Shown here: in pieces, positions 25,847-40,113 of the stretch
Numbering within the stretch: the first letter of the stretch is position 1
Layout of the letters: each line of letters starts with the position of its first letter
Source of the DNA: Aliiroseovarius subalbicans
GTDB taxonomy: Bacteria > Pseudomonadota > Alphaproteobacteria > Rhodobacterales > Rhodobacteraceae
Length of the DNA stretch: 64,000 bases
Reading direction: 5' to 3'
NCBI RefSeq assembly: GCF_022678625.1
Contig: NZ_JALBYQ010000001.1
Span: forward strand, 744,001-808,000
Made by a program: the position numbers and the translations under genes
The notes under the pieces: generated by a model
The model's input: the letters and a program-made list of their open reading frames with translations, nothing else
The model's database searches: none
What the model was told of the DNA's origin: nothing

Positions 25847-27115
25847 TTATTTAGCGGCGTCCCAGCTGTCCTGGATCTCACCAGCGACGGCAGCGGCGTC
25901 TTTCCCACCAGCATAGTCCACCATGCCGGTCCAGAACGAACCCTGACCAACTGCGGCGGGCATCAGGTCGGATGCGTCAAACCGGAAGGTCGTGGCGTTC
26001 AGCAAGATCTCGTTCATCTTGCCAAGCGTCGGATCGCTGAACTTCGACGTGTCGACACCCTTGTGCGGCGTCAGGAAGCCCTTCAGCCCCATCCAAGTCT
26101 CATGCGCCTCGGTCGTCTGGAGATAGGCAATCAGGTCATGTGCCGCCTGGTTCTCGTTGGTGATGGCCCACACGGTGCCAGCACCCAGAACGGGCTTGCC
26201 CAAATCCTTGCCTTCATATGCCGGGAAGTAGAAGAAGTCCGCATCTTCACCCACGACGGTGCCTTCGGGGAAGAAGGCCGGGATGAAGCTGGCCATCCGG
26301 TGCATGTAGCATTGCGGCGGCGAGGAGAAGAGGCCCTTGGGGCTGTCGCGGAAGTCGGTCGAGGCCACGGCCCCGGCGCCACCAGCAACATAAGCATCGT
26401 TGCGCGCAAACGCACCGAATTCTTCAATTGCGGCAACAACTTTCGGGTCGTCAAACTTCATCTCGTTGGACACCCAGGCGTCATAATCGGCGGGCGTTTG
26501 GGTGCGCAGCATAAGGTCCTCGACCCAGTCGGTCGCGGGCCAGCCTGTTGCGCCACCGGACCCCAGGCCGATGCACCATGGCGTGCCGCCATCAGCGACG
26601 ATCTGATCGCTCAGCGCTTTCAGTTCTTCCATCGTGTTCGGGATGTCATATCCCGCATCTTCGAAGTTTTCCGGCACGTACCAGACCAGTGATTTCAAAT
26701 CGACCTTGTAGGAGAAGGCGTAGAGGTGATCGGCCCCGTCAGCCCCGGCATAGGTGCCCAGATCAACCCAAGACTGCCCGGCGGCATAGTTTTCACGGAT
26801 CCAGTCGTCCGTGCCCTCAGCCAGCGGTGTTAGCAGGCCACGACTGGCCAGGCCAGCGGCAAGGCCGGGCTGCGGAAACACGGCGATGTTCGGCGCCGAA
26901 CCGGCTTCGACATCAACCATGATCTGTTGCTCAAAGCTGTCAGACCCGACATAGCGCACGTCGTGGCCCGACGCAGCGGCAAAGCCCGCCAGAACCTTTT
27001 CGGCGTTTTCCTGGTCCGGGCCAAGCCACGGGCCAAACACGGTTACCTGCTCAGCCGAAGCCATCCCAGCGGTCAATGCAAGAGCAGCCGCGCCGGTCAA
27101 AAGAACATGTTTCAT
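25847..27115 (-). CDS. aglE: AglE, periplasmic alpha-glucoside-binding protein
   Basis: 422 aa from the ATG after GGGAGGA. The signal peptide is MKHVLLTGAAALALTAGMASA, cleaved before EQVTVFG. It is a family 1 solute-binding protein that captures the sugar and delivers it to AglFG. Visible features are FGPWLGPDQENAEKVLAGF, APNIAVFPQPGL, YAFSYKVDLKSLVWY, and the closing GQGSFWTGMVDY-GG segment. First gene of the operon, with its own operator and promoter immediately upstream. Confidence 0.94.
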   Translation of the reverse strand: MKHVLLTGAAALALTAGMASAEQVTVFGPWLGPDQENAEKVLAGFAAASGHDVRYVGSDSFEQQIMVDVEAGSAPNIAVFPQPGLAAGLASRGLLTPLAEGTDDWIRENYAAGQSWVDLGTYAGADGADHLYAFSYKVDLKSLVWYVPENFEDAGYDIPNTMEELKALSDQIVADGGTPWCIGLGSGGATGWPATDWVEDLMLRTQTPADYDAWVSNEMKFDDPKVVAAIEEFGAFARNDAYVAGGAGAVASTDFRDSPKGLFSSPPQCYMHRMASFIPAFFPEGTVVGEDADFFYFPAYEGKDLGKPVLGAGTVWAITNENQAAHDLIAYLQTTEAHETWMGLKGFLTPHKGVDTSKFSDPTLGKMNEILLNATTFRFDASDLMPAAVGQGSFWTGMVDYAGGKDAAAVAGEIQDSWDAAK

Positions 27116-27188
27116 TGTATCCTCCCAGATGCGCGCCGAAACTGGCGCTTGAAACGATCCCACTTTGCGCAATCCTGTGAAGAAGTGC

Positions 27189-27202
27189 CCAAAGCGCTTT
27201 GG
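27189..27202. promoter_or_regulatory. LacI-family operator for aglE
   Basis: CCAAAGCGCTTTGG, a perfect 14-bp palindrome with the central CG typical of LacI-family sites. It lies 74 bases before the aglE start and just downstream of the putative -10. A near-identical copy precedes aglR. Binding by AglR is inferred. Confidence 0.8.
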
Positions 27203-27212
27203 ATACCAAAAG

Positions 27213-27239
27213 AGTTTACCAGAAAAACTTCCCTGTCAA
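27213..27239 (-). promoter_or_regulatory. Putative aglE promoter
   Basis: On the minus strand TTGACA (27234-27239) is a perfect -35, followed after 15 bases by TAAACT (27213-27218) as a possible -10. AACTCT at 17 bases is an alternative. The operator starts about 11 bases downstream, so a bound repressor would block initiation. Confidence 0.5.
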
Positions 27240-27345
27240 TGATTCAACGCAAACACACTGGTTTGTCGCATCGGGACTGTTTTCAAGAGGTATGCGCAAA
27301 GTTCCTTTTGACGTTGACGATCCGCTTGGCTACGCTCAATAGGAT

Positions 27346-27359
27346 CCAAACCGCTTTGG
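27346..27359. promoter_or_regulatory. LacI-family operator for aglR
   Basis: CCAAACCGCTTTGG, one mismatch from a perfect palindrome and one base different from the aglE operator. It ends 9 bases before the aglR ATG. Autoregulation of aglR-bgl-glk is the likely meaning. Confidence 0.72.
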
Positions 27360-27368
27360 GAACCTCCG

Positions 27369-28397
27369 ATGAACCTGAAACAGCTTTCGGAACTCCTGCA
27401 TCTGTCGCAGACCACCGTCAGCCGGGCGCTGAACGGGTATCCAGAGGTGAGCGAGGCCACCCGCAAACGGGTTCAGGCCGCAGCCCAGGCACATGGATAC
27501 GCCCCCAACATGCGCGCGCGCAGCCTGGCGACCGGGCGTGCGATGTCGATCGGCCATGTCATCCCAGTCAGTTCGAAACATGAGATGGTGAACCCGGTGT
27601 TCGCCGATTTCATCGCCGGCGCGGGCGAGACTTATTCGCGCAACGGCTATGACATGGTGCTGTCTGTGGTGTCTGATGATGGGGAAGAAGCCGCCTATCG
27701 CGCCTTCAAGATGAAGGGCAGCGTCGATGGCATCATCGTTCATGCACCCCGGCTGGGCGATCCGCGCATTCACCTTCTGAACGAGATTGGCCTGCCCTTT
27801 GTCGTGCATGGCCGCGCCTCGGACGCACAGGAGCCCTATGCCTGGGTTGATGTGAACAACACCCACGCGTTTGAACGCGCCACACGGTTTTTGCTGGACT
27901 TGGGGCACCGGCGCATCGCGCTGGTGAACGGGCTTGAGACGATGGATTTCGCAATCCGGCGGCGTCATGGTTTTGAGGCTGCGCTGGCGGAACGCGGGCT
28001 CAGCGCCGACCTCGCGCTGATCTCCTCGGACGAAATGACCGAGGCTTACGGTCACGACACCGCCCGCGCGCTGCTGGCGCGTCCCGACCCGCCCACGGCC
28101 TTTCTGGTGTCCTCGATGATTACCGCCATCGGCGTGCGCCGCGCGATCGAGGAGTTGGGGCTGGTGATGGGGCGCGACGTCTCGGTCATCACCCATGATG
28201 ATGAGCTGAGTTACTTTCGAAACGGCGGCGACACGCGGCTTTATACCGCCACCCGGTCCTCAGTGCGTGAGGCGGGCAAGCGGTCGGCGGAAATGCTGCT
28301 CGACATGATCCACAACCAGACCGGGCCACAAGAGTTGTTGCTTGAGGCCGAGTTGACTTTGGGCCAATCCACCGGCCCTACATCCAAGGAAACCTGA
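27369..28397 (+). CDS. aglR: AglR, LacI-family transcriptional repressor
   Basis: 342 aa. The N-terminal helix-turn-helix (LKQLSELLHLSQTTVSRALNG) and hinge helix (YAPNMRARSLATGRA) bind the CCAAA-CG-TTTGG palindromes. The remainder is a periplasmic-binding-protein-like sensor with GSVDGIIVHAPR, PYAWVDVNN and LDLGHRRIALVNG. It is divergent from aglE and followed by bgl after one base. It probably represses both directions until an alpha-glucoside or a derivative binds. Naming follows the rhizobial agl loci. Confidence 0.9.
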   Translation: MNLKQLSELLHLSQTTVSRALNGYPEVSEATRKRVQAAAQAHGYAPNMRARSLATGRAMSIGHVIPVSSKHEMVNPVFADFIAGAGETYSRNGYDMVLSVVSDDGEEAAYRAFKMKGSVDGIIVHAPRLGDPRIHLLNEIGLPFVVHGRASDAQEPYAWVDVNNTHAFERATRFLLDLGHRRIALVNGLETMDFAIRRRHGFEAALAERGLSADLALISSDEMTEAYGHDTARALLARPDPPTAFLVSSMITAIGVRRAIEELGLVMGRDVSVITHDDELSYFRNGGDTRLYTATRSSVREAGKRSAEMLLDMIHNQTGPQELLLEAELTLGQSTGPTSKET

Positions 28398-28398
28398 C

Positions 28399-29721
28399 AT
28401 GTTACCCACCCGCAAAGATTTCCCGCAGGATTTCCTGTTCGGGGTCGCCACCTCGGCCTATCAGATCGAAGGCCACAGCTTTGGCGGTGCGGGGCCAACC
28501 CATTGGGACAGTTTCGCCGCCACGCCCGGGAATGTCGACAAGGCGGACAACGGCGCTGTGGGGTGTGACCATTACCACCGGTTGGTCGAGGATCTGGACC
28601 TGATCGCGGGCGGGAATTTCGACGTCTACCGGTTTTCGACAAGCTGGGCGCGGGTGCTGCCCGAGGGGCGTGGCGCGGTTAACCAAGACGGCTTGGATTT
28701 CTATGACCGGCTGGTTGACGGATTGCTGGAGCGTGGTGTGAAGCCGGCGGCGACGCTGTATCACTGGGAACTGCCTTCGGCGCTGGCGGATCTGGGCGGC
28801 TGGCGCAATCGTGACATCGCCAATTGGTTTGCCGATTACACGCGCGTGATCATGGAGCGGATCGGCGACCGCGTTTGGTCTGCCGCGCCGATCAACGAAC
28901 CCTGGTGCGTCAGCTGGCTCAGCCATTTCGAAGGCCACCACGCCCCCGGCCTGCGCGACATCCGCGCCACCGCACGCGCGATGCACCATGTGCTTTTGTC
29001 CCACGGACGCGCGATCGAGGTGATGCGCGATCTTGGCATGTCCAATCTGGGGGCGGTGTGCAATTTCGAATATGTCGAACCAGCAGATAACAGTGCCGAA
29101 ACGGCGCGCGCTGTGGCGACGTATGACGCGATCTACAACCGCTTCTTCCTGGGCGGCATTTTCAAAGGCGAATACCCGCAAGAGGTCTTGGAGGGGCTGG
29201 CCCCGCATCTGCCCACAGGCTGGCAGGACGATTTCGCCACCATCACCCAGCCGGTCGACTGGTGCGGGTTGAACTACTATACCCGAAAGATCATCGGCCC
29301 GGCCGACACGCCCTGGCCGTCGCTTGAGGAACGCCCTGGCCCCCTGCCCAAGACGGAAATGGGCTGGGAGATCTATCCCGACGGGCTGGAGTATTTCCTC
29401 AAACGCACCGCACGTGATTTCACCGGTGATCTGCCGCTTTACGTCACTGAAAACGGCATGGCAGCGCCCGATCGGCTGGAGAATGGCGCTGTGCAGGATG
29501 ACGACCGGATCGACTATATCAACCGCCACCTTGGTGCGGTGCAACGCGCGGTTCAGGCGGGGGTTCCGGTCAAGGGTTATTACAGCTGGTCTTTGATGGA
29601 CAATTTCGAATGGGCGCTGGGCTATGACAAACGCTTTGGCCTTGTGCATGTCGATTTTGACAGTCTTGAACGCACGCCCAAAGCCTCCTACCACGCCTTC
29701 AGAAAGGCCCTGACCCGATGA
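28399..29721 (+). CDS. Beta-glucosidase, GH1 family
   Basis: 440 aa, cytoplasmic, of normal GH1 length. The N-terminal signature is FPQDFLFGVATSAYQIEG. The acid/base glutamate is in the INEPWC motif and the nucleophile glutamate in LYVTENGM. Further conserved pieces are FDVYRFSTSWARVLPEG, GYYSWSLMDNFEWALGYDKRFGLVHVD and the tail TPKASYHAF. It releases glucose from beta-glucosides. It starts one base after aglR and overlaps glk by ATGA, so all three are translated together. Pairing a beta-glucosidase with an alpha-glucoside operon widens the range of disaccharides that feed Glk. A fully open reading frame on the other strand is a coding shadow. Confidence 0.95.
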   Translation: MLPTRKDFPQDFLFGVATSAYQIEGHSFGGAGPTHWDSFAATPGNVDKADNGAVGCDHYHRLVEDLDLIAGGNFDVYRFSTSWARVLPEGRGAVNQDGLDFYDRLVDGLLERGVKPAATLYHWELPSALADLGGWRNRDIANWFADYTRVIMERIGDRVWSAAPINEPWCVSWLSHFEGHHAPGLRDIRATARAMHHVLLSHGRAIEVMRDLGMSNLGAVCNFEYVEPADNSAETARAVATYDAIYNRFFLGGIFKGEYPQEVLEGLAPHLPTGWQDDFATITQPVDWCGLNYYTRKIIGPADTPWPSLEERPGPLPKTEMGWEIYPDGLEYFLKRTARDFTGDLPLYVTENGMAAPDRLENGAVQDDDRIDYINRHLGAVQRAVQAGVPVKGYYSWSLMDNFEWALGYDKRFGLVHVDFDSLERTPKASYHAFRKALTR

Positions 29722-30689
29722 CACGCGCGCCCAATACGCACAGCCTTCTGGCCGATATCGGCGGCACCAACACGCGCGTGGCGCTGGCCCAGGGCACGAC
29801 GCTGCTGCCCGACACGATCCGCCGCTTCCGAAACAAGGACTTTCCCGGCCTGGAAAGCGTTCTGCGCCGGTATCTGGACGAAGAGGGGAATCCCGATTGC
29901 GCCGGGGTTTGCGTGGCCGTGGCGGGGCCGGTGCGCGACGGTGTGGCCGAGATGACCAACCTGAGCTGGATCATCACCAAGGACGCGCTGGCGCGGGCGG
30001 CACAGGCGGAAACCGTGGCGATCCTGAACGACCTTCAGGCGCAAGGCCACGCGCTGGGCCACCTGTCTGGCGACAGCCTGCGCCCGGTGGTGCGCGGGGG
30101 TGACCCAACCCCGCACGCAGCCATGCTGGTGATCGGCGTGGGCACCGGGTTCAACTGCGCGCCTGTGTATCAGACCGGCGCGGGCCGTCTTGTGCCGCCA
30201 TCCGAGGCTGGTCATGCCAACATGCCAATCCGCACCGCCGACGAACTGGCACTGCTCCACTTTGTCGAAACCGCGCACGGCTTTCCGGCGGTTGAAGACG
30301 TGCTGTCGGGCCGCGGTCTGGAACGCATTCACCTGTGGCTGTCGACCCGCGCAGGTGACCCGGTTGAAAAAGGCGCTGCTGAAATCATGGCTGCGGCCGA
30401 GGCCGAAGACCCCCTGGCATTGGAAACCCTGCGCTTTTTCGTGCGAATCCTTGGCACGGTCACTGGCAACCTGTCGCTGATCCACCTGCCCTTCGGCGGC
30501 GTGTTCCTTGTCGGCGGTGTGGCCCGTGCCGTTGCCCCCTGGCTTGAGCGGTTCGACTTCGCTCACGGCATGTCCGACAAGGGGCGTTTTGCGGGCTTCA
30601 TGCAGAATTTCCCGGTCACCGTAATCGAAGACGATTATGCCGCCCTGACCGGTTGTGGCCACCATCTCGCGCATATTCTGCCGGGTTGA
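29718..30689 (+). CDS. glk: Glucokinase
   Basis: 323 aa. It phosphorylates glucose to glucose 6-phosphate with ATP. The phosphate-binding motif is LLADIGGTNTRVALA, the catalytic Asp is in AILNDLQAQGHAL, the conserved sugar-binding segment PSEAGHANMPIRTADELALLHF, and the adenosine motif GGVFLVGGVARAV. It belongs to the E. coli-type (GlcK) group. Its ATG overlaps the bgl stop by four bases. In this operon it traps glucose released by AglA and the GH1 enzyme. Confidence 0.95.
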   Translation: MTRAPNTHSLLADIGGTNTRVALAQGTTLLPDTIRRFRNKDFPGLESVLRRYLDEEGNPDCAGVCVAVAGPVRDGVAEMTNLSWIITKDALARAAQAETVAILNDLQAQGHALGHLSGDSLRPVVRGGDPTPHAAMLVIGVGTGFNCAPVYQTGAGRLVPPSEAGHANMPIRTADELALLHFVETAHGFPAVEDVLSGRGLERIHLWLSTRAGDPVEKGAAEIMAAAEAEDPLALETLRFFVRILGTVTGNLSLIHLPFGGVFLVGGVARAVAPWLERFDFAHGMSDKGRFAGFMQNFPVTVIEDDYAALTGCGHHLAHILPG

Positions 30690-31005: not shown

Positions 31006-31659
31006 ATGGGATGGATCGAACTGATCGCGGCTTTCGCCGCGTTTTTCCTGTCGCATTCTGTGCCGGTGCGCCCCGCGGTGAAACGCCGGCTGGTGGCGCA
31101 GATCGGCGCGCGGGGTTTCACGCTGGCCTATTCGGCACTGTCTTTGGCGGTGTTGAGCTGGCTGATTGTCGCGGCAAGCCGGGCGCCGTTCGTGGCCCTG
31201 TGGGATTGGGCACCTTGGCACAACCACGTGCTTCTGGGGGCTATGGCCCTTGCAGTCTGGATTGCAGCGATGGCCGTCGGGCGACCGAACTCGCTGTCCT
31301 TCGGTGGGGCACAGAACGCGCGGTTCGACCCGCTACAGCCCGGCATCATCGGATGGATGCGCCACCCGCTTCTGGCCGCACTTTTCCTGTGGGCGGCGGC
31401 GCATATGCTGCCTAATGGAAACCTGGCGCATGTGATCCTGTTTGGCACTTTCGCCGGGTTTTCCCTGTTGGGCATGCGGATCATCGACAGGCGCCAGCGC
31501 CGGGTGTTGGGCGCTGAACGCTGGCAACAGCTTTCAGCCACCCACCGCTCTTTTTCGATCACGCAAGGCGGGATGATCCGCAGCCTTGTCGCGGTCACCC
31601 TTTACCTGCTCTTGCTGTGGCTGCATGGCCCGGTGATCGGGGTGTCACCGCTGGTTTAA
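31006..31659 (+). CDS. NnrU family membrane protein
   Basis: 217 aa from the ATG after AGGGGGC. The protein has six to seven hydrophobic segments with the family N-terminus ELIAAFAAFFLSHSVPVRP, the central LGAMALAVWIAAM and the HPLLAALFLWAAAHML segment. It is related to NnrU and to isoprenylcysteine methyltransferase-like membrane proteins. NnrU is linked to nitric oxide reduction in Rhodobacter, but no denitrification gene is nearby, so the role here is open. Its last four bases overlap the convergent dehydrogenase gene. Confidence 0.85.
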   Translation: MGWIELIAAFAAFFLSHSVPVRPAVKRRLVAQIGARGFTLAYSALSLAVLSWLIVAASRAPFVALWDWAPWHNHVLLGAMALAVWIAAMAVGRPNSLSFGGAQNARFDPLQPGIIGWMRHPLLAALFLWAAAHMLPNGNLAHVILFGTFAGFSLLGMRIIDRRQRRVLGAERWQQLSATHRSFSITQGGMIRSLVAVTLYLLLLWLHGPVIGVSPLV

Positions 31660-32663
31660 CCCAGCAGCGCCTCGATCCGGTCCAGCGTGGCGACGTTAAC
31701 CGCAACGCCCTCGGTTTGGGCCACGGCCCGTTTCGCCCCGCGTCCGTCGCCGGGCAGATGGGCACCGTCCTGTGCGTGGATTGCCGCCACCAGTGCGGCC
31801 ATGCGGTCGGCAAAGTCACCGCCCGAGGTCGCAGCTGGGTCAATCGCCAGGAAGAACTGCCCAGTGCGCGGTGGTCCGCCCTTGGTGCCGGAGAACGGCG
31901 AGGCATCCTTGCCCAACGTCGCCCCGGTCATCGCAGCGGCCATCATTTCAACCATCAGCGCGACGCCGACGCCCTTATAGCCGCCCGACGGCGCCATCGA
32001 TCCTTTCAGCCCGACCTCGGGATCCGTGGTCGGGTTGCCCTCGGCATCCAGCGCCCAGCCGACCGGGATCGGGCGTCCCTCACGGGCATGTTTCATCACC
32101 TCGCTTTTGGCGATCGTGCTGGCGCTTTGGTCGATCAGCACGGCGGGCTGACCATCGGCCCCGGGGGCGGCGATGGAAAACGGGTTGGTGCCGACAACCG
32201 GCGTGGCCCCGCCCGAGGGCGCGATTGAGGCGGGCGCGTTGGTGAACCCGATCCCCATCAGCCCGGCCGCGGCCAAGCGATGGGTGTGATAGCCCAACAC
32301 ACCGCAATTGTACGAATTGCGGATCGACAGCGCGGCCACGCCCTGTTCGCGCGCCAGCGGCACCAGCGCGTCAAAGCCCATATCGATGGCGGGATGGGCA
32401 AAACCGCTGTCCGCATCAACACAGATCACGCCGGGCTTGGGCCGGGTCAGAACCGGCTGCGCCTTGCCATCCACTTTGCCGCATTGCACATGCTCGGCAT
32501 AGATCGGGATATAAGCCAAACCGTGCGAGGCAACCCCGTCCGCTTCTGTCGCGGCGGTGGCCTGCGCCAATGCCCGGGCGTTTTCGGGGGTGGTTCCGGC
32601 GGCTTCAAGGGCGCGCTGGGACAGGTCTTCGATCTCGGCCAGAGTCAGGGTGCGAGTTTGCAT
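31656..32663 (-). CDS. Ldh2/MDH-type NAD(P)-dependent oxidoreductase
   Basis: 335 aa member of the malate/L-lactate/ureidoglycolate/sulfolactate dehydrogenase superfamily, which also holds delta1-pyrroline-2-carboxylate reductases. Family marks are the catalytic-His segment ADGVASHGLAYIPIY, NSYNCGVLGYHTHRLA, GGATPVVGTNPFSIAAP and GGYKGVGVALMVEMMAAA. The substrate cannot be read from the sequence. It is the last gene of the operon beginning with the aldehyde dehydrogenase at 37409, 9 bases after DUF3726. In that setting, reduction of a cyclic imine or a 2-oxo/2-hydroxy acid is plausible. Confidence 0.9.
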   Translation of the reverse strand: MQTRTLTLAEIEDLSQRALEAAGTTPENARALAQATAATEADGVASHGLAYIPIYAEHVQCGKVDGKAQPVLTRPKPGVICVDADSGFAHPAIDMGFDALVPLAREQGVAALSIRNSYNCGVLGYHTHRLAAAGLMGIGFTNAPASIAPSGGATPVVGTNPFSIAAPGADGQPAVLIDQSASTIAKSEVMKHAREGRPIPVGWALDAEGNPTTDPEVGLKGSMAPSGGYKGVGVALMVEMMAAAMTGATLGKDASPFSGTKGGPPRTGQFFLAIDPAATSGGDFADRMAALVAAIHAQDGAHLPGDGRGAKRAVAQTEGVAVNVATLDRIEALLG

Positions 32664-32672
32664 CAGATTTCC

Positions 32673-33299
32673 TTAGTCATTGTCGGACAGGTCGGTGCCC
32701 GCGCCCAACCGGCGCGAGGCTTCGGTGGCGGGCGCGTAGGTGCGGTGGGCAAAACGGCCAAGCGTGTCCCAATCGCCCGCGTCGATCTCGGCGCGGGTGC
32801 CGGAGGTGTCCGGGCAGGTTACGCTGGAGCGTGTGATCACCACATCGACGGTTTCGGCATCGGGGTTGCCTGAGATGTCCAGCCCCTGCCCGTCCGTCGT
32901 GGCCATAACCCCGTCGAAGGTCAGGCTGAACGCCGTGTCCCCCTGACGCGCAGCCTGGGCCAGGAAAGGCAAAAGCAGCAGCGGTTGCGCCACCGCGCGC
33001 ATCGTGAGCGGCGCGTCCGGCAAAAGGGTGACGGCATCACAAAAGCTTGCCCCGGCAAGCAGTGGGCACATGGGCGCATCGCCTGCGCCCCAATCGTCCA
33101 GCGACCGGGGCGCGCGAGCGTCCATGTCGACCGGATCAAGCCTAGTCAGGAGCGCGGCCAGCGCTGCCCCCCCAGGCTGCGATTGTGCACACAGCCAGCG
33201 CGTGGCGCGCCCGGCTTCTTCTGCCATGCCCCAGCTGTAACCAGCGCCCCGCGCGGCCTTCTTCGCCATTGCCTCAACTTCGTTCAAAGACAGGATCAT
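32673..33299 (-). CDS. DUF3726 family protein
   Basis: 208 aa. N-terminal MILSLNEVEAMAKKAARGAGYSWGMAEEAGRATRWL is the hallmark of DUF3726. The rest is alanine-rich with no transmembrane segment. Its ATG overlaps the stop of the 561-aa gene (ATGA), so the two are translationally coupled. No function is known for the family. Constant association with a catabolic dehydrogenase pair suggests an accessory or subunit role, which is inference. Confidence 0.82.
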   Translation of the reverse strand: MILSLNEVEAMAKKAARGAGYSWGMAEEAGRATRWLCAQSQPGGAALAALLTRLDPVDMDARAPRSLDDWGAGDAPMCPLLAGASFCDAVTLLPDAPLTMRAVAQPLLLLPFLAQAARQGDTAFSLTFDGVMATTDGQGLDISGNPDAETVDVVITRSSVTCPDTSGTRAEIDAGDWDTLGRFAHRTYAPATEASRRLGAGTDLSDND

Positions 33300-34981
33300 G
33301 CCGGCGCCTCCGTCTGGTCATAGACCCAGAGGTCCGCGTTGTCGTCCGTCAGCCCGTCCGGATAGGGCGCGCCGGCATACATGCAGATGCGCACCCAGCG
33401 GTCCGAGCGCGGATCAAACCGGGTGGCGCCAAAGAACGACAGCTTGCAGCGCAGCATGTCGATCGGCAGCACCTCGGCGCTGATCGTGTTGTCACGAATC
33501 TCGCCATACGGCGCGTGGGCCGAGATCTGCACCCGCCGCACCATGTGGCGATGCTCGGGGTGTTTCAGCAGAAACGCAGCCACCGGCGTGGTGCCGTCCC
33601 AGCCAGCCAATGCCTGCGCCAAGGCGGCAGCATCGCGTCCGGGCGCCAGAGGTTGCTCATATGCGGCAATCGGTTCGTCAAAGCGCTCGCCCAAACGCGG
33701 TTCCAGCTTTTCCTCGGACACATACCAGGCGCGGGCCTGCGCCTCGTGGGCCTGCCAGTCAAGCGCCAGGGCCCAGCCATAGGTGCCCTGCAGCAGGTCC
33801 AAGAGCGTGGCGACCGGCATCGCACCGTCAATCCGCGCGGCATCCGCATTAGCATCCGCCATGCAGGCCCCCAGCCCGTCGACCAGATCGCCGTATGGTT
33901 CCAGCATGAACGAGGCAAGGCATTCCTGCCCCTCGTCGCTGAGCGTCTGTTCCGCCCAGAGAAACAGCCGGTTCCAGGGCTGATCGCCTGCCATGTCGCG
34001 CGCCTCCATTTCGGCCAGAAGTGCGCTCAGGTCTGCGGCCAAGGCGGCGTTGCGCTCGATTTGGATCGGGTGCTGCGACGGATCCGTTTGCGCCTGCGCC
34101 CGCATCTCGGCCAGCAGCCCGCGCACCTGGGCCACTGCCTTGGCTGTGGCGGTCGGAAGACTGCGCACCCGCGCAATCGCCTCTTCCCGCGCCATGATCC
34201 AATTGTTGAACAAAACCGGGTGGTTGACCAGGTAAGGCGCCATGCCCAGCCCGGTGGAATTGCCGATGCCCAACTGGCGGGCCAGGGTCGGATCCAGCCT
34301 GACCGCTGCGTCACCGCCGCGCGCGCGCGCCATGTGTTCGACCAGGTCACGCACAAAGGCACGGGTCAGGAACACCGACAGCATTTCCACCTGGAACGGC
34401 GCTTGTGTCTCTTCGCGCCCCGCCAGCGCCTCACGGTCCGCAGCACCCAGCTTGCCGGAACCGTAAACGGCGGTGGTGCGCATCAGGTATCCGACCTCAT
34501 CAATACGTGCGGGATCGGGCTGATGCCCAGCCGCCAGCGCCTCGACAAAATGCGCCCAGAGCCGCACCGAGCGGTTGGCGCGCGACACCGAGATTTCGCG
34601 CGCGGTGACGCGCCCGGCCTCTTGCAGCGGGACGTTCGCCCTCAGCCGGGCGATGTCATCGGCATCCGGCACACCGTCAAACAAGGTGAAGGTCGCGTCC
34701 CAGGCCTGGGCAATCACCCGGTCCGAGCGTTGATCGGCGGGCAGGTCATGGGCAAAGGCGACCAGCGAATAGGTGCGATCAGGCCCTTTGGCGGAATAGA
34801 CTGCATGGCCCACGCCGTGCGCGTCGATGTTGAAAACAGGCCGGGAAAAAGTCCAATTTTCGCGCGCCATGCGACGGGTCAGTTGGCGCATGAAGCTCAG
34901 CCGGCATTGGTGCAGCGACCCCAGCCGGTGCAGGCGCATGACGCGGGCCGGATCGCGGCGGGGGATCGCGCCCGCGCTCAT
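33296..34981 (-). CDS. Unrecognised 561-aa protein in catabolic operon
   Basis: 561 aa starting at the ATG that overlaps the dipeptidase stop (ATGA). I do not recognise the family. No signal peptide or membrane segment is seen, and no nucleotide- or metal-binding signature. Notable segments are RLGSLHQCRLSFMRQLTRRM near the N-terminus, YGSGKLGAADREAL (about residue 200), RQLGIGNSTGLGMAPYLVNHP (about residue 265) and a C-terminal RFDPRSDRWVRICMYAG. The glycine-rich blocks look like conserved functional loops of an enzyme. Flanked by M19 dipeptidase and DUF3726 in strict overlap, it is likely a core component of the pathway. Confidence 0.75.
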   Translation of the reverse strand: MSAGAIPRRDPARVMRLHRLGSLHQCRLSFMRQLTRRMARENWTFSRPVFNIDAHGVGHAVYSAKGPDRTYSLVAFAHDLPADQRSDRVIAQAWDATFTLFDGVPDADDIARLRANVPLQEAGRVTAREISVSRANRSVRLWAHFVEALAAGHQPDPARIDEVGYLMRTTAVYGSGKLGAADREALAGREETQAPFQVEMLSVFLTRAFVRDLVEHMARARGGDAAVRLDPTLARQLGIGNSTGLGMAPYLVNHPVLFNNWIMAREEAIARVRSLPTATAKAVAQVRGLLAEMRAQAQTDPSQHPIQIERNAALAADLSALLAEMEARDMAGDQPWNRLFLWAEQTLSDEGQECLASFMLEPYGDLVDGLGACMADANADAARIDGAMPVATLLDLLQGTYGWALALDWQAHEAQARAWYVSEEKLEPRLGERFDEPIAAYEQPLAPGRDAAALAQALAGWDGTTPVAAFLLKHPEHRHMVRRVQISAHAPYGEIRDNTISAEVLPIDMLRCKLSFFGATRFDPRSDRWVRICMYAGAPYPDGLTDDNADLWVYDQTEAPA

Positions 34982-35958
34982 CCCGTGACCTCGGGCGTGA
35001 AGCTGTCGGCATAGAACCGGTGCCAATTGCCCCCGATGATGCCCGCGACCTCATTCGCGCTCATCCCCACCTTGGTCAGACCCTCTTCGAGGTTGCCAAA
35101 GTCGCGATTGTCACGAAACCAGTCCGGCATCGGTGGGAAACCAGGTGCCGCCGCCGAGCCTTCGCCATAGTCGATTTTCTTGGTCCACCGTCCCACGCGC
35201 ATCCACTCCACCACGCTGTCGGGCTGATCCTGACACAGATCGCTGCCGATGCCCAAATGTTCCGCCCCATACAGCGCGGCGGCATCGGCGATCATCTGGC
35301 AAAACCCTTCCAGCGTGCAGGCGGATTTGTCCTTCAGGTGGTGCGGATAGAGCGAAAAGCCCAACATGCCGCCCTTGTCGGTCACCGCGCGGATCACTTC
35401 ATCGCGCTTGTTGCGCAGGGCGGGCGCCCAGGCGTGCGGGTTGGCATGGGTGATCGCGATCGGACGGCGCGACATCTCGGCCGCTTCGATCGTTGAACGG
35501 TCGGCGGAATGGCTCATGTCGATGACCATGCCGACGCGGTTCATTTCAGCGATGACCTCGCGCCCCATCCGGGTGATGCCGGGATCCTCGGCCTCGTAAC
35601 AGCCCGTCGCCAGCAGCGACTGGTTGTTGTAACTCAACTGCATGAAACGCGCGCCCAGATCATGCAGCACTTCGACCAGCCCGATGTCGTCCTCGATCGG
35701 GCTGGGGTTTTGAAACCCGAAAAAGATCGCGGTACGGTTTGTTGCGCGGGCAAGCGCCACGTCCGAGGCCCACCGCCCCTTCAGGATCAGGTCGGGGTAT
35801 TGCTCAAACCAGCGGTTCCATTGCTCGATGTTCAACACCGTTTCGCGAAAGTTTTCGTGATAGGCGATGGTCACATGCACCGCGTCCACCCCGCCCGCAC
35901 GCATTTCGCGGAAGATCTTTTCCGACCAATTGGCGTATTGCAGATTGTCGATGCGCAT
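34978..35958 (-). CDS. Membrane dipeptidase family M19
   Basis: 326 aa. Zn-dependent (amidohydrolase fold) family of renal dipeptidase. Visible ligand regions are GGVDAVHVTIAYHENF, the SHSADRSTIEAAEMSRRPIAITHANPHA segment with two His, and GIGSDLCQD. The family signature around NKRDEVIRAVTDKGG is present, and the C-terminal KVGMSANEVAGIIGGNWHRFY fits. No signal peptide, so it is cytoplasmic. It would hydrolyse a dipeptide or a related amide. Both ends overlap neighbours: start with the aldehyde dehydrogenase stop, stop with the next start. Confidence 0.9.
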   Translation of the reverse strand: MRIDNLQYANWSEKIFREMRAGGVDAVHVTIAYHENFRETVLNIEQWNRWFEQYPDLILKGRWASDVALARATNRTAIFFGFQNPSPIEDDIGLVEVLHDLGARFMQLSYNNQSLLATGCYEAEDPGITRMGREVIAEMNRVGMVIDMSHSADRSTIEAAEMSRRPIAITHANPHAWAPALRNKRDEVIRAVTDKGGMLGFSLYPHHLKDKSACTLEGFCQMIADAAALYGAEHLGIGSDLCQDQPDSVVEWMRVGRWTKKIDYGEGSAAAPGFPPMPDWFRDNRDFGNLEEGLTKVGMSANEVAGIIGGNWHRFYADSFTPEVTG

Positions 35959-37409
35959 CAGACCGGCGTCCCGGCGCTGATATAGGCGGTCTTGACCACG
36001 GTATAGAACTCGGCCGCTGTGCGCCCCTGTTCACGCGGGCCATAGGAACTGTCGCCGCGCCCGCCGAACGGCACGTGATAATCCGTGCCCGCGGTGGGCA
36101 GGTTCACTGTCACCACTCCGGTGCGCGCATTGCGGCGGAAATCCGTGGCGCGCGCCAGGTTTTGCGTCACGATGCCCGAGGTCAGGCCGAAATTGGTGTC
36201 GTTCACAACGCTCAGAGCTTCGTCATAGCTGTCGACCTTGATCACGCTGGTCAGCGGCGCGAACATCTCTTCGCGGTTGATGCGCATGTCGTTGGTTGTG
36301 TTCAGAAACACGCCCGGCGACATATAGAAGCCTTCGTGCGGCATGTTCAGGCGCGCGCCGCCGCAGGCAAGCTCGGCGCCTTCTTCGCGACCCAGATCGG
36401 CATAGGCCAGGTTCTCGTCCAGCTGCTGCTGGTTGACCACCGGGCCCATCTGCACGCCGTCCTCAAGCGCGTGACCGACCTTCATCGCCTGCGCACCGGC
36501 CACCAGTTTTTCGACAAACGCGTCGTGAATGCCCGCATGCACTACAAGACGCGAGGACGCGGTGCATTTCTGCCCGCTGCCCCCGAAGGCGCCGCCAAGC
36601 GCCAGTGACACGGCCAGGTCCAGATCGGCGTCATCCATCACCGCCAGGGCGTTTTTCGACCCCATCTCCATCTGCACCCGCGTTAGGTTCTGGATCGCGG
36701 CCGAGGCAATGCCCTTGCCCACCGGCACCGAACCGGTGAAGGAAATCGCGTCCACCATCGGGCTTTCGACAAGCTGCTGCCCGATCGTGCCGCCCGAGCC
36801 CATCACCAGCGAAAACAGACCCTTGGGAATGTCCTGACGGTCGATGATCTCGGCCAGTGCCACCGCCGAGGCCGGGGTCAGGTTGGCGGGTTTCCACACC
36901 ACCGCGTTGCCATAACACAGCGCCGGTGCGATCTTCCACGAGGCGGTGGCGGTGGGGAAATTCCACGGGCTGATGATCGCCACGGTGCCGACCGGTTCGC
37001 GGCGCACGTCGATTTCCACCCCCGGGCGCACGCTGTCGGCGTTTTCGCCCAGCTGGCGCAGGCATTCGGCGGCGTAATAGGTGAAGAACTGCCCGGCGCG
37101 GAACACCTCGCCTCTGCCCTCGGCCAGCGGTTTGCCTTCCTCGCGGCTCAGAAGCGTTCCCAGCTCTTCGGCCCGCGCCATCAGCTCATTGCCGATCGCC
37201 ATCAGAACCGCCTGCTTGCGCTCCATCCCATAGGCGGCCCATTCCGCCTGCGCCACCCGCGCGCGTTCCAGCGTTTCGGTCAATTGATCCGAACTCGCCT
37301 GTGTGAACAACCCGATCACTTCGGTCAGGTCGGACGGGTTACGGTTTTCGATCGCGCTGTCGCCAGCGATCCAGGTGCCAGCAATCAGGTTCAGCTTCGT
37401 GTCGGTCAT
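35958..37409 (-). CDS. Aldehyde dehydrogenase, ketoglutarate-semialdehyde dehydrogenase-like
   Basis: 483 aa from the ATG after GGAGCCCCC. NAD(P)-dependent oxidation of an aldehyde to the acid. Key residues are IISPWNFPTATASWKIAPALCYGN (substrate/cofactor channel), SFTGSVPVGKGI, the glutamate in MEMGSKNALAVMDDADLD, and the catalytic cysteine in GSGQKCTASSRLVV. The closing FGGRGDSSYGPREQGRTAAEFYTVVKTAYI resembles the 2-oxoglutarate semialdehyde dehydrogenases of hydroxyproline and glucarate pathways. First gene of the operon, facing the LysR regulator. The exact substrate is an inference. Confidence 0.88.
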   Translation of the reverse strand: MTDTKLNLIAGTWIAGDSAIENRNPSDLTEVIGLFTQASSDQLTETLERARVAQAEWAAYGMERKQAVLMAIGNELMARAEELGTLLSREEGKPLAEGRGEVFRAGQFFTYYAAECLRQLGENADSVRPGVEIDVRREPVGTVAIISPWNFPTATASWKIAPALCYGNAVVWKPANLTPASAVALAEIIDRQDIPKGLFSLVMGSGGTIGQQLVESPMVDAISFTGSVPVGKGIASAAIQNLTRVQMEMGSKNALAVMDDADLDLAVSLALGGAFGGSGQKCTASSRLVVHAGIHDAFVEKLVAGAQAMKVGHALEDGVQMGPVVNQQQLDENLAYADLGREEGAELACGGARLNMPHEGFYMSPGVFLNTTNDMRINREEMFAPLTSVIKVDSYDEALSVVNDTNFGLTSGIVTQNLARATDFRRNARTGVVTVNLPTAGTDYHVPFGGRGDSSYGPREQGRTAAEFYTVVKTAYISAGTPV

Positions 37410-37519
37410 GGGGGCTCCACAGGTTTGGCTTTGTGTTTGGCATTTGCAAACAGCATGGACACGGGACACACAGTCAGTCAAATTGAAACTTGTGAACCCA
37501 ACTTCAGGATTTCTGAAAG
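37410..37519. promoter_or_regulatory. Divergent promoter region, LysR target
   Basis: 110 bases between the aldehyde dehydrogenase and lysR. It is AT-richer than its surroundings, as expected for a divergent control region. LysR sites are T-N11-A based; I could not single out one with confidence. Confidence 0.45.
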
Positions 37520-38598: not shown

Positions 38599-40113
38599 TC
38601 AATCGACGCCGCAGACCGGGGCCGGCGTGCGTTTCAGCGCGTCCAACCCGTGTTGCGACGGAATGCTGGGGTTGACCGGCTCGCCGCTCCAATGGCCGAA
38701 ATTGCGCATCGCTTGTGTCGATCCCGGTCCCCATTTGCCGTCAATCGCGCCGTCATAACAGCCAACCCGCGCCAATTCGCGCTGCATTGCGGCGGCGATC
38801 GAGGCATCAGCCTTTGGCACCACCGGCACAGGGGCGGGTTTCACGGCCCCGGTGACATAGTCCTGAAGGGCCGCTTTCGACCCGGACCCGAAGGCGCCAT
38901 CAATCGCGCCTTGGTAATACCCTGCGTCCCTCAGGTGCATTTGCAGCCATTGCGAGGCCGCGCGCGACACATCGTTCAAGCTGTCCACCGCCATGCCCGG
39001 ATCTGCGCGATAGAGCGTGAGGAACGTATCGACATAGCCCGACCGGTTGGAAAACTGATCCATCAGCATCAACGCGCGATAATAACCCTCAAGATACCCG
39101 CCCCGCCCGGCGTCCATATAATGCGACAAGGCAATGTCGGGATCTTTCGGCACGCCGATGCCGTTCTCATACATCTCGCCCAGCGTCGATTTCGACGGGG
39201 CATAGCCCTGCGCGGCTGCCTGACGCAGCAGCGCGATCGGGCGCTCGGCGCTTGTATTCCAGGTGGCTACGGGCTGAGAGAAGACCTCGCCCAGAAGTTT
39301 CAGCGCCTCGTTGTGCAGTTGCGTGGGTGTCTGTGCCGATTGGGGCGCGGGCGCAACCGGCGCCTGTGCGGGGGCCGATGTGGGATCCGGCGTGGCCGCC
39401 TGCCCGTTCAACCCTTTCAACAGCTCCTGCGCGATGATCACGAAGGTGCCGTTCGGAAACTTGTCGACATAGGCCTGAAGCAGCACCGGGTTGCCGCTGT
39501 CCCTCACCGCGTCCCAAAAGGCCAGGTCCAGCGCCGGATCAGGGGCGGATGCTGGCGCGGGAGCTTGGGACGTGTCAGGCGCCGTGTCCGCACTGCTGTC
39601 ATCTGCAAGCGGCACCGGTTCATCCTCTGGCGGTTTGCATTCCATATTCGGGCCGCAGCCGCCCGTGTCCACGCCCATCACCGGGCTACCGTCGTCCTCC
39701 AACACCACCGCGTCATCGTCGGCGACGATCAGGCTGTCATCCGGCGGCAGGCATTCCAGCATGCCGTCGCCACAGGTATGCGCATCCGGTGCCAACCCGG
39801 CTTCGGTCAAAGCGGCCTCGCAATCGTCCGACAGCTTCTGCAGTTCGGCATCGCTGTAGGTCCGACCGTCCAGCCCCCCGGTCGCCCCCATGAAGGCCTC
39901 GCCCCAACTCAGACAAGATTGCGGCTGCGGATCGGGGCCCACATTGGCGCAGATGTCGTCGTAGTAAAGCGCGTAATTCTCATATTCCGCGCCCATGCCG
40001 TCGTATTTCGCGGCCAGATCGCAGGGGCTGATCCACTCCTCGGCCAAACCCGGGCTGGCCAGCACCAAGCCAAGGGCACTGCTTGCAAGAATGCGGTGAA
40101 AACCTGTTGTCAT
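38599..40113 (-). CDS. Secreted Sel1/peptidoglycan-binding-like protein
   Basis: 504 aa. The signal peptide is MTTGFHRILASSALGLVLASPGLAEE. A Cys- and Asp-rich region (residues about 30-180; pairs of Cys in CGDGMLECLPPDD and GGCGPNMECKPPEDE suggest disulfides) leads into a Pro/Ala linker. Sel1-like helical repeats follow (PIALLRQAAAQGYAPSKSTLGEMYENGIGVPKD). At the end are two peptidoglycan-binding-1-like modules (LRDAGYYQGAIDGAFGSGSKAALQDYV and CYDGAIDGKWGPGSTQAM). It probably acts in the periplasm at the cell wall. No catalytic domain is seen. A small membrane-protein gene lies directly upstream. Confidence 0.8.
   Translation of the reverse strand: MTTGFHRILASSALGLVLASPGLAEEWISPCDLAAKYDGMGAEYENYALYYDDICANVGPDPQPQSCLSWGEAFMGATGGLDGRTYSDAELQKLSDDCEAALTEAGLAPDAHTCGDGMLECLPPDDSLIVADDDAVVLEDDGSPVMGVDTGGCGPNMECKPPEDEPVPLADDSSADTAPDTSQAPAPASAPDPALDLAFWDAVRDSGNPVLLQAYVDKFPNGTFVIIAQELLKGLNGQAATPDPTSAPAQAPVAPAPQSAQTPTQLHNEALKLLGEVFSQPVATWNTSAERPIALLRQAAAQGYAPSKSTLGEMYENGIGVPKDPDIALSHYMDAGRGGYLEGYYRALMLMDQFSNRSGYVDTFLTLYRADPGMAVDSLNDVSRAASQWLQMHLRDAGYYQGAIDGAFGSGSKAALQDYVTGAVKPAPVPVVPKADASIAAAMQRELARVGCYDGAIDGKWGPGSTQAMRNFGHWSGEPVNPSIPSQHGLDALKRTPAPVCGVD

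Follow-up and report, generated by a model that had tools for sequence, protein, structure and literature searches.

What does a tightly coupled bacterial operon degrade when one of its products matches no known protein family? We asked this of a 64,000-nucleotide stretch of the Aliiroseovarius subalbicans genome (contig NZ_JALBYQ010000001.1, positions 744,001 to 808,000; this whole stretch is hereafter the window, with position 1 its first letter), in which five minus-strand genes encode an aldehyde dehydrogenase (ALDH), an M19-family protein, a 561-aa protein that we call P561, a DUF3726 protein and an Ldh2-family oxidoreductase (Table 1). Gene content, linkage, family assignments and folds, from which we infer the substrate, the order of the reactions and the chemistry of P561, suggest that the substrate of this operon is a cyclic N-methyl betaine, with homarine (N-methylpicolinate) the most likely one, and that it is broken down to N-methylglutamate and from there to glutamate, a reading that we think probable, though well short of secure.

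Betaine transporters accompany P561

The strongest sign of a betaine substrate is the association of P561 with a BCCT transporter. The single BCCT gene of the window genome lies 13 kb from the operon, and its product is 75-78% identical to BCCT proteins encoded immediately downstream of Ldh2 in further species. With one genome per genus, all carriers of this BCCT also hold P561 (22/22 vs. 105/219 genomes of the family overall, p=2.6e-8); the two genes are non-adjacent in 11 of the 22 carriers, the window genome included (association p=1.1e-4). An earlier sequence-only reading of this stretch, which had marked out the interval 31656-37409, had the five genes right but missed the transporter that belongs to the system, which sits outside.

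Neighbourhoods were counted in the 82 P561 loci whose flanking DNA sufficed. In 34 of them, P561 has a betaine transporter of BCCT or OpuAC type nearby; the BCCT gene lies next to the operon in many species, and OpuAC-type betaine ATP-binding cassette (ABC) transporters stand in elsewhere. DUF3726 is found near P561 in 79 loci and M19 in 78, which upholds the proposal of the sequence-only reading that the tight coupling of these genes reflects one shared pathway; ALDH is found in 54, Ldh2 in 39 (a count that takes in a few weaker relatives, at L032, L098 and L114), RidA in 13, and a LysR gene within 8 kb in 54. The recurrent neighbours examined showed no prominent oxygenase family.

The P561/ALDH/BCCT association also crosses domains of life, as a plasmid of Natrinema versiforme shows: here (L149:5032-13282) a haloarchaeal P561 relative (29-30%) has an ALDH gene on one side and a BCCT transporter gene on the other.

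Operon-linked sarcosine-oxidase-type genes group with N-methylglutamate dehydrogenase

Heterotetrameric sarcosine-oxidase-type genes adjoin the operon at loci L038, L056, L065, L067 and L072, in Ruegeria TM1040 and on a Shinella plasmid, where they are accompanied by purU. In a maximum-likelihood tree of the alpha subunits, which leaves out the Shinella copy, the remaining six fell into one clade (support 100/99) that includes the alpha subunits of true mgs/gmaS clusters (recognised by GATase_6, GXGXG, Glu_synthase and Gln-synt_C) and is apart from two other paralog clades. Because they share this clade with genes of mgs/gmaS clusters, the linked genes are best read, on sequence grounds, as mgdABCD, the genes of N-methylglutamate dehydrogenase (Mgd). 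An AraC regulator gene adjoins several of these mgd sets and recalls R. pomeroyi, in which tmaR adjoins mgdABCD; the paper on that system also reports a part for Mgd in the catabolism of homarine (PMC13390433). The genome-wide association of P561 with Mgd was set aside as evidence, since Mgd also serves methylamine use.

Locus L152 (G000:C7:844000-863000) carries a soxBDAG set beside genes that read from their sequence as DnaG- and RpoD-like, and the same arrangement recurs in several relatives. The alpha subunit of this set forms the sister clade of MgdC and is a candidate for the window organism's N-methylglutamate dehydrogenase.

P561 is widespread and matches no known family

P561 occurs in 17 of 61 genomes (the window genome and 60 relatives), and a scan of a genome collection returned at least 582 relatives, of which the 80 kept were mostly from Rhodobacterales, with others from Granulosicoccus and from metagenome-assembled genomes of Acidimicrobiales. 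Plasmids of Phaeobacter, Aminobacter, Shinella, Pseudomonas, Vibrio, Sinorhizobium and a haloarchaeon also carry P561, annotated, where a gene is listed, solely as hypothetical protein; the reading proposed here would give such a protein a concrete role.

Neither single-sequence nor profile searches with P561 found a match in Pfam, NCBIfam or the PDB, in agreement with the sequence-only reading, which had seen no recognisable domain and had proposed a possible new enzyme; the clear family match that would have spoken against that reading did not appear. Structure searches likewise gave no convincing solved relative: with the AlphaFold2 model of the whole chain (predicted local distance difference test score (pLDDT) 86.3, predicted template modelling score (pTM) 0.90), the best Foldseek match had an E-value of 0.64, and VIA returned weak helical matches only (Z≤5.7). 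As the model was compared as a whole chain and not by domain, we do not claim its fold as new. Profile comparison found no relation of P561 to DUF3726 or to Ldh2. P561 is probably an enzyme. About 110 columns are invariant across 18 orthologs, and an alignment of 11 sequences down to 27% identity keeps many invariant Arg, Gly and Trp residues, with no invariant His or Cys.

A more distant P561 subfamily (~30%) is found at L148:8713-19324 (S. meliloti 1021 pSymB), L173 and L174, together with genes for IclR, a DUF3726-like protein, M19 and a PotD-type ABC transporter; the Alloyangia member has in addition Rid and a flavin adenine dinucleotide (FAD) oxidoreductase. At L022:10709-15737, genes for a Zn-alcohol dehydrogenase, an ALDH, a phosphodiesterase-type protein and an aminotransferase V adjoin a second P561 copy. 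Such 2-aminoethylphosphonate-degradation-like genes were seen by P561 at this locus alone, and we took their presence as chance.

DUF3726 has a reduced Ldh2 fold

The AlphaFold2 model of the DUF3726 protein (pLDDT 92.9) was matched end to end by the fold of Ldh2, the type-2 malate/lactate dehydrogenases. The best 15 entries of the structure search all belonged to this family (Z 9.9-12.7 over 160-188 residues; next row 2.8), the best of them with a root-mean-square deviation of 3.2 over 182 of 208 residues (Z 12.7), and the best chain in Foldseek had a probability of 1.0 (E=0.004). The N-terminal profile matches as well, hhalign aligning 52 N-terminal columns with the Ldh2 of the operon itself (E=5.2e-5, probability 67%). 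Compared with the Ldh2 fold, however, DUF3726 is ~130 residues shorter and poorly conserved in its middle part, and the SHG histidine motif that nearly all linked Ldh2 proteins possess is absent from 32 DUF3726 sequences; its tail, by contrast, is strongly conserved (TYAPATExSRxxGAGAGxSDND). DUF3726 looks like a reduced Ldh2 paralog that has turned into a partner of P561. A literature search for DUF3726 gave no match, and in the literature searched we found no description of its Ldh2 fold, of a P561 without match, of the alternation of Ldh2 with RidA (below) or of the BCCT association.

Ldh2, RidA, ALDH and M19 in a proposed N-methyl imine route

Pfam Ldh_2 spans residues 8-330 of the operon's Ldh2, that is, its full length. 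Its best solved relative is DpkA (1wtj/2cwf, E=1.4e-59; next 8.1e-41), an imine reductase of N-methyl amino acids, so that in the PDB search malate, lactate, sulfolactate and ureidoglycolate enzymes are more distant from it than DpkA is; all NCBIfam equivalogs scored far under their cut-offs. The reaction proposed for the operon's Ldh2 is of the DpkA type, but DpkA differs in operon and substrate. The sequence-only reading had placed this protein among the imine-reducing Ldh2 members, as we do, and its comparison of the ALDH with 2-oxoglutarate-semialdehyde dehydrogenase also stands, with the reservation that the best NCBIfam models (2,5-dioxovalerate and alpha-ketoglutaric semialdehyde dehydrogenase) score below equivalog level (477.4 bits vs. 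a cut-off of 750, and 465.5 vs. 770).

None of the 13 loci with RidA near P561 has Ldh2 as well (Fisher p=1e-4, not tree-corrected). Phaeobacter inhibens and a Pseudomonas plasmid fit the RidA type, and Aminobacter, Pararhizobium, Shinella and TM1040 the Ldh2 type. The operon RidA is closest to PSPTO_0102 and PA5083, two Rid2 proteins whose deaminase activity has been demonstrated (PMC5619798). A RidA imine deaminase may replace Ldh2 where the latter is missing.

Classical M19 dipeptidases bind metal via an N-terminal HxD and the Glu of an EGGH motif. In alignments of the operon's M19 protein to solved dipeptidases, this Glu is replaced by Gln83, and the N-terminal stretch reads IDNLQYAN, without HxD; His150, His171 and Asp240 are kept in all orthologs. 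The best solved relative, the amidohydrolase 2i5g (E=4.4e-56), shares these departures from the classical active-site motifs; it is not known to have an assigned function or a P561 or DUF3726 partner. We read the operon's protein as one of M19 fold that should not be termed a dipeptidase.

A proposed route from homarine to glutamate

We propose that the substrate would be taken up by the BCCT transporter, after which P561 and DUF3726 would open the ring between C5 and C6 (homarine + O2 + 2[H] -> 2-(N-methylformamido)-5-oxopentenoate). This step falls to P561 and DUF3726 by elimination, because none of the domains encoded in the operon is that of a known oxygenase or flavin reductase and these two are the sole unassigned candidates left. 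The subsequent steps are assigned from protein families: the ALDH would yield N-formyl-N-methyl-dehydroglutamate, from which M19 would release formate to leave 2-(methylimino)glutarate; Ldh2, as a DpkA-type imine reductase, would convert the imine to N-methylglutamate, and a Mgd/Sox-type dehydrogenase would demethylate the latter to glutamate. The reactions balance, with homarine (C7H7NO2) + O2 + 2H giving C7H9NO4, the ALDH step C7H9NO5, the M19 step formate + C6H9NO4, and the Ldh2 step N-methylglutamate (C6H11NO4). In operons without Ldh2, RidA may instead split the imine hydrolytically into 2-oxoglutarate and methylamine; two alternative pathway ends are thus predicted, N-methylglutamate via Ldh2 and methylamine via RidA. 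The LysR protein would be the pathway regulator.

If this route is correct, P561 and DUF3726 could make up a ring-opening enzyme of a new kind that acts on N-methylpyridinium betaines, composed of a catalytic protein of unmatched fold and a shrunken Ldh2-type subunit, and lacking a known oxygenase, flavin-monooxygenase or metal site; we offer this as a tentative possibility. In the same case, an operon present in 105 of 219 genera of the family would be a main homarine sink. Homarine is an osmolyte abundant in marine plankton, and in samples from the surface ocean it was measured at up to 3% of the particulate carbon (PMC8269262); according to a later author correction, the concentrations had been overstated.

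Comparison with known pathways

A conserved homarine pathway of environmental bacteria is attributed to Ferrer-Gonzalez et al. 2026 (Nat Microbiol 11:1531), as cited in PMC13390433. Mgd is reported to act in that pathway; in the present case mgd adjoins the operon in several of the relatives studied, and a betaine transporter accompanies the operon. The window genome differs in being without the linked-clade mgd. The operon described here is probably this homarine operon. The latter is reportedly named homABCDER, and its five genes and regulator would match.

The TgnABCDE pathway of trigonelline degradation, reportedly the subject of work by Perchat and colleagues in 2018, is alike in outline, with ring opening of an N-methylpyridinium betaine, aldehyde oxidation and hydrolysis. 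It differs from the operon in that the end product proposed here is N-methylglutamate, and in that P561 and DUF3726 occupy the ring-opening position. Trigonelline, an isomer of homarine, is opened by TgnA/TgnB, which were judged unlikely to act on homarine (PMC8269262), and none of the operon's five proteins has a domain of the TgnA/TgnB oxygenase or reductase type.

Points against the homarine reading and alternative explanations

Several observations weigh against homarine as the substrate or against the route as drawn. The window genome has no linked-clade MgdC, just two Sox paralogs (56% and 46%), and no gmaS; none of the five proteins has a recognised oxygenase or flavin reductase domain for a step that would consume O2, and the M19 protein seems to be without part of the canonical metal site. 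Neither Ldh2 nor RidA lies nearby in 30 of the 82 loci, and on the P561 tree the mutual exclusivity of the two comes down to 2-4 informative independent contrasts (p=0.125-0.5), so few after tree correction that we treat it as a trend only. In 2021, R. pomeroyi was reported to grow more poorly on homarine than on trigonelline (PMC8269262); it was later seen drawing homarine down fast. Finally, the distant P561 relatives (~30%) keep a DUF3726-like protein and M19 in the company of PotD-type ABC transporters, aminotransferases or Rid with an FAD oxidoreductase, so the core P561-DUF3726 chemistry may extend to substrates other than homarine.

We therefore considered other explanations. A pathway of the same type might act on a different betaine or heterocycle with an N-methyl group, such as trigonelline, proline betaine, N-methylproline or an N-methyl amino acid, through an N-methyl imine reduced by Ldh2 or hydrolysed by RidA. 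Such a substrate would suit BCCT and OpuAC transporters, whose cargo includes many betaines, DpkA-type enzymes, which accept several N-alkyl imines, and the Sox/Mgd family, for which several N-methyl amino acids are substrates; however, trigonelline is opened by TgnA/TgnB (PMC8269262), of which the operon holds no domain, and the linked Sox genes belong to the N-methylglutamate clade, which fits homarine best, so that we regard another betaine as rather unlikely. It is less probable still that P561 and DUF3726 form an accessory complex (a chaperone, cofactor loader or channel) for an oxygenase encoded elsewhere: the absence of an invariant His or Cys from the deep P561 alignment, the loss of the usual Ldh2 catalytic His from DUF3726 and the unmatched fold of P561 would be compatible with this, whereas P561 is conserved more strictly than any other unassigned protein of the operon, keeps a DUF3726-like partner down to ~30% identity in both Rhizobiales and Rhodobacterales, and has no prominent oxygenase family among those recurrent neighbours that were examined. 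The sequence-only reading had instead favoured degradation of hydroxyproline, cyclic dipeptides or peptide amides, and a wider version of it, in which D-amino acids or hydantoins are also candidates, M19 is a dipeptidase and the ALDH a 2-oxoglutarate-semialdehyde dehydrogenase, would account for the likeness of the ALDH, for the ability of Ldh2/DpkA enzymes to reduce cyclic imines and for the M19 fold. We rejected hydroxyproline and dipeptide degradation as very improbable because the operon lacks such genes (no epimerase, D-amino-acid oxidase, D-hydroxyproline dehydrogenase/oxidase, deaminase, dihydrodipicolinate-synthase-like protein, hydantoinase or cyclic-peptide hydrolase is encoded there) and betaine transporters are present; moreover, in relatives it is betaine transporters and mgd that neighbour the operon, the M19 metal site is altered and seemingly incomplete, and the ALDH falls under the equivalog cut-offs.

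Operon layout and neighbouring genes

All five operon genes are intact, each with an ATG start. The start/stop overlaps, the short gap before Ldh2 and the divergent LysR gene described in the sequence-only reading were confirmed at the junctions: ALDH/M19 is joined by TGATG (1-base overlap), M19/P561 and P561/DUF3726 each by ATGA (4-base overlap), and 9 bases precede Ldh2. We place the end of the operon after Ldh2, since the gene beyond it, NnrU, is convergent.

Table 1. Coordinates, assignments and proposed roles of the operon genes and associated features in the window
Feature	Position	Strand	Assignment and proposed role
ALDH, 483 aa	35958..37409	-	Pfam Aldedh 1.4e-150; relative of 2-oxoglutarate-semialdehyde dehydrogenase; proposed C5 aldehyde oxidation after ring opening
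M19-family protein, 326 aa	34978..35958	-	Pfam Peptidase_M19 3.4e-71; 2i5g-like subgroup; proposed N-formyl removal
P561, 561 aa	33296..34981	-	No known family; proposed ring-opening enzyme, by elimination
DUF3726 protein, 208 aa	32673..33299	-	Pfam DUF3726 2.1e-19; shrunken Ldh2 fold; proposed P561 partner subunit
Ldh2-family NAD(P)H oxidoreductase, 335 aa	31656..32663	-	Pfam Ldh_2 7.7e-97; proposed conversion of 2-(methylimino)glutarate to N-methylglutamate
LysR-family regulator, 292 aa	37520..38398	+	Pfam HTH_1 and LysR_substrate
Intergenic region, 110 bases, between divergent ALDH and LysR	37410..37519		Read directly; predicted promoter location
BCCT betaine transporter, 610 aa	50217..52049	+	Pfam; sole BCCT gene of the window genome; proposed substrate uptake

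Two further features of the window lie outside the operon. Past LysR, positions 38599-40113 encode a 504-aa protein with Pfam PG_binding_1 (peptidoglycan-binding). A separate sugar locus at 25847-30689, confirmed with Pfam, consists of an extracellular solute-binding protein gene (-) and of genes for a LacI regulator, a GH1 glycosidase and a glucokinase (+), with a 4-base overlap within the (+) genes.

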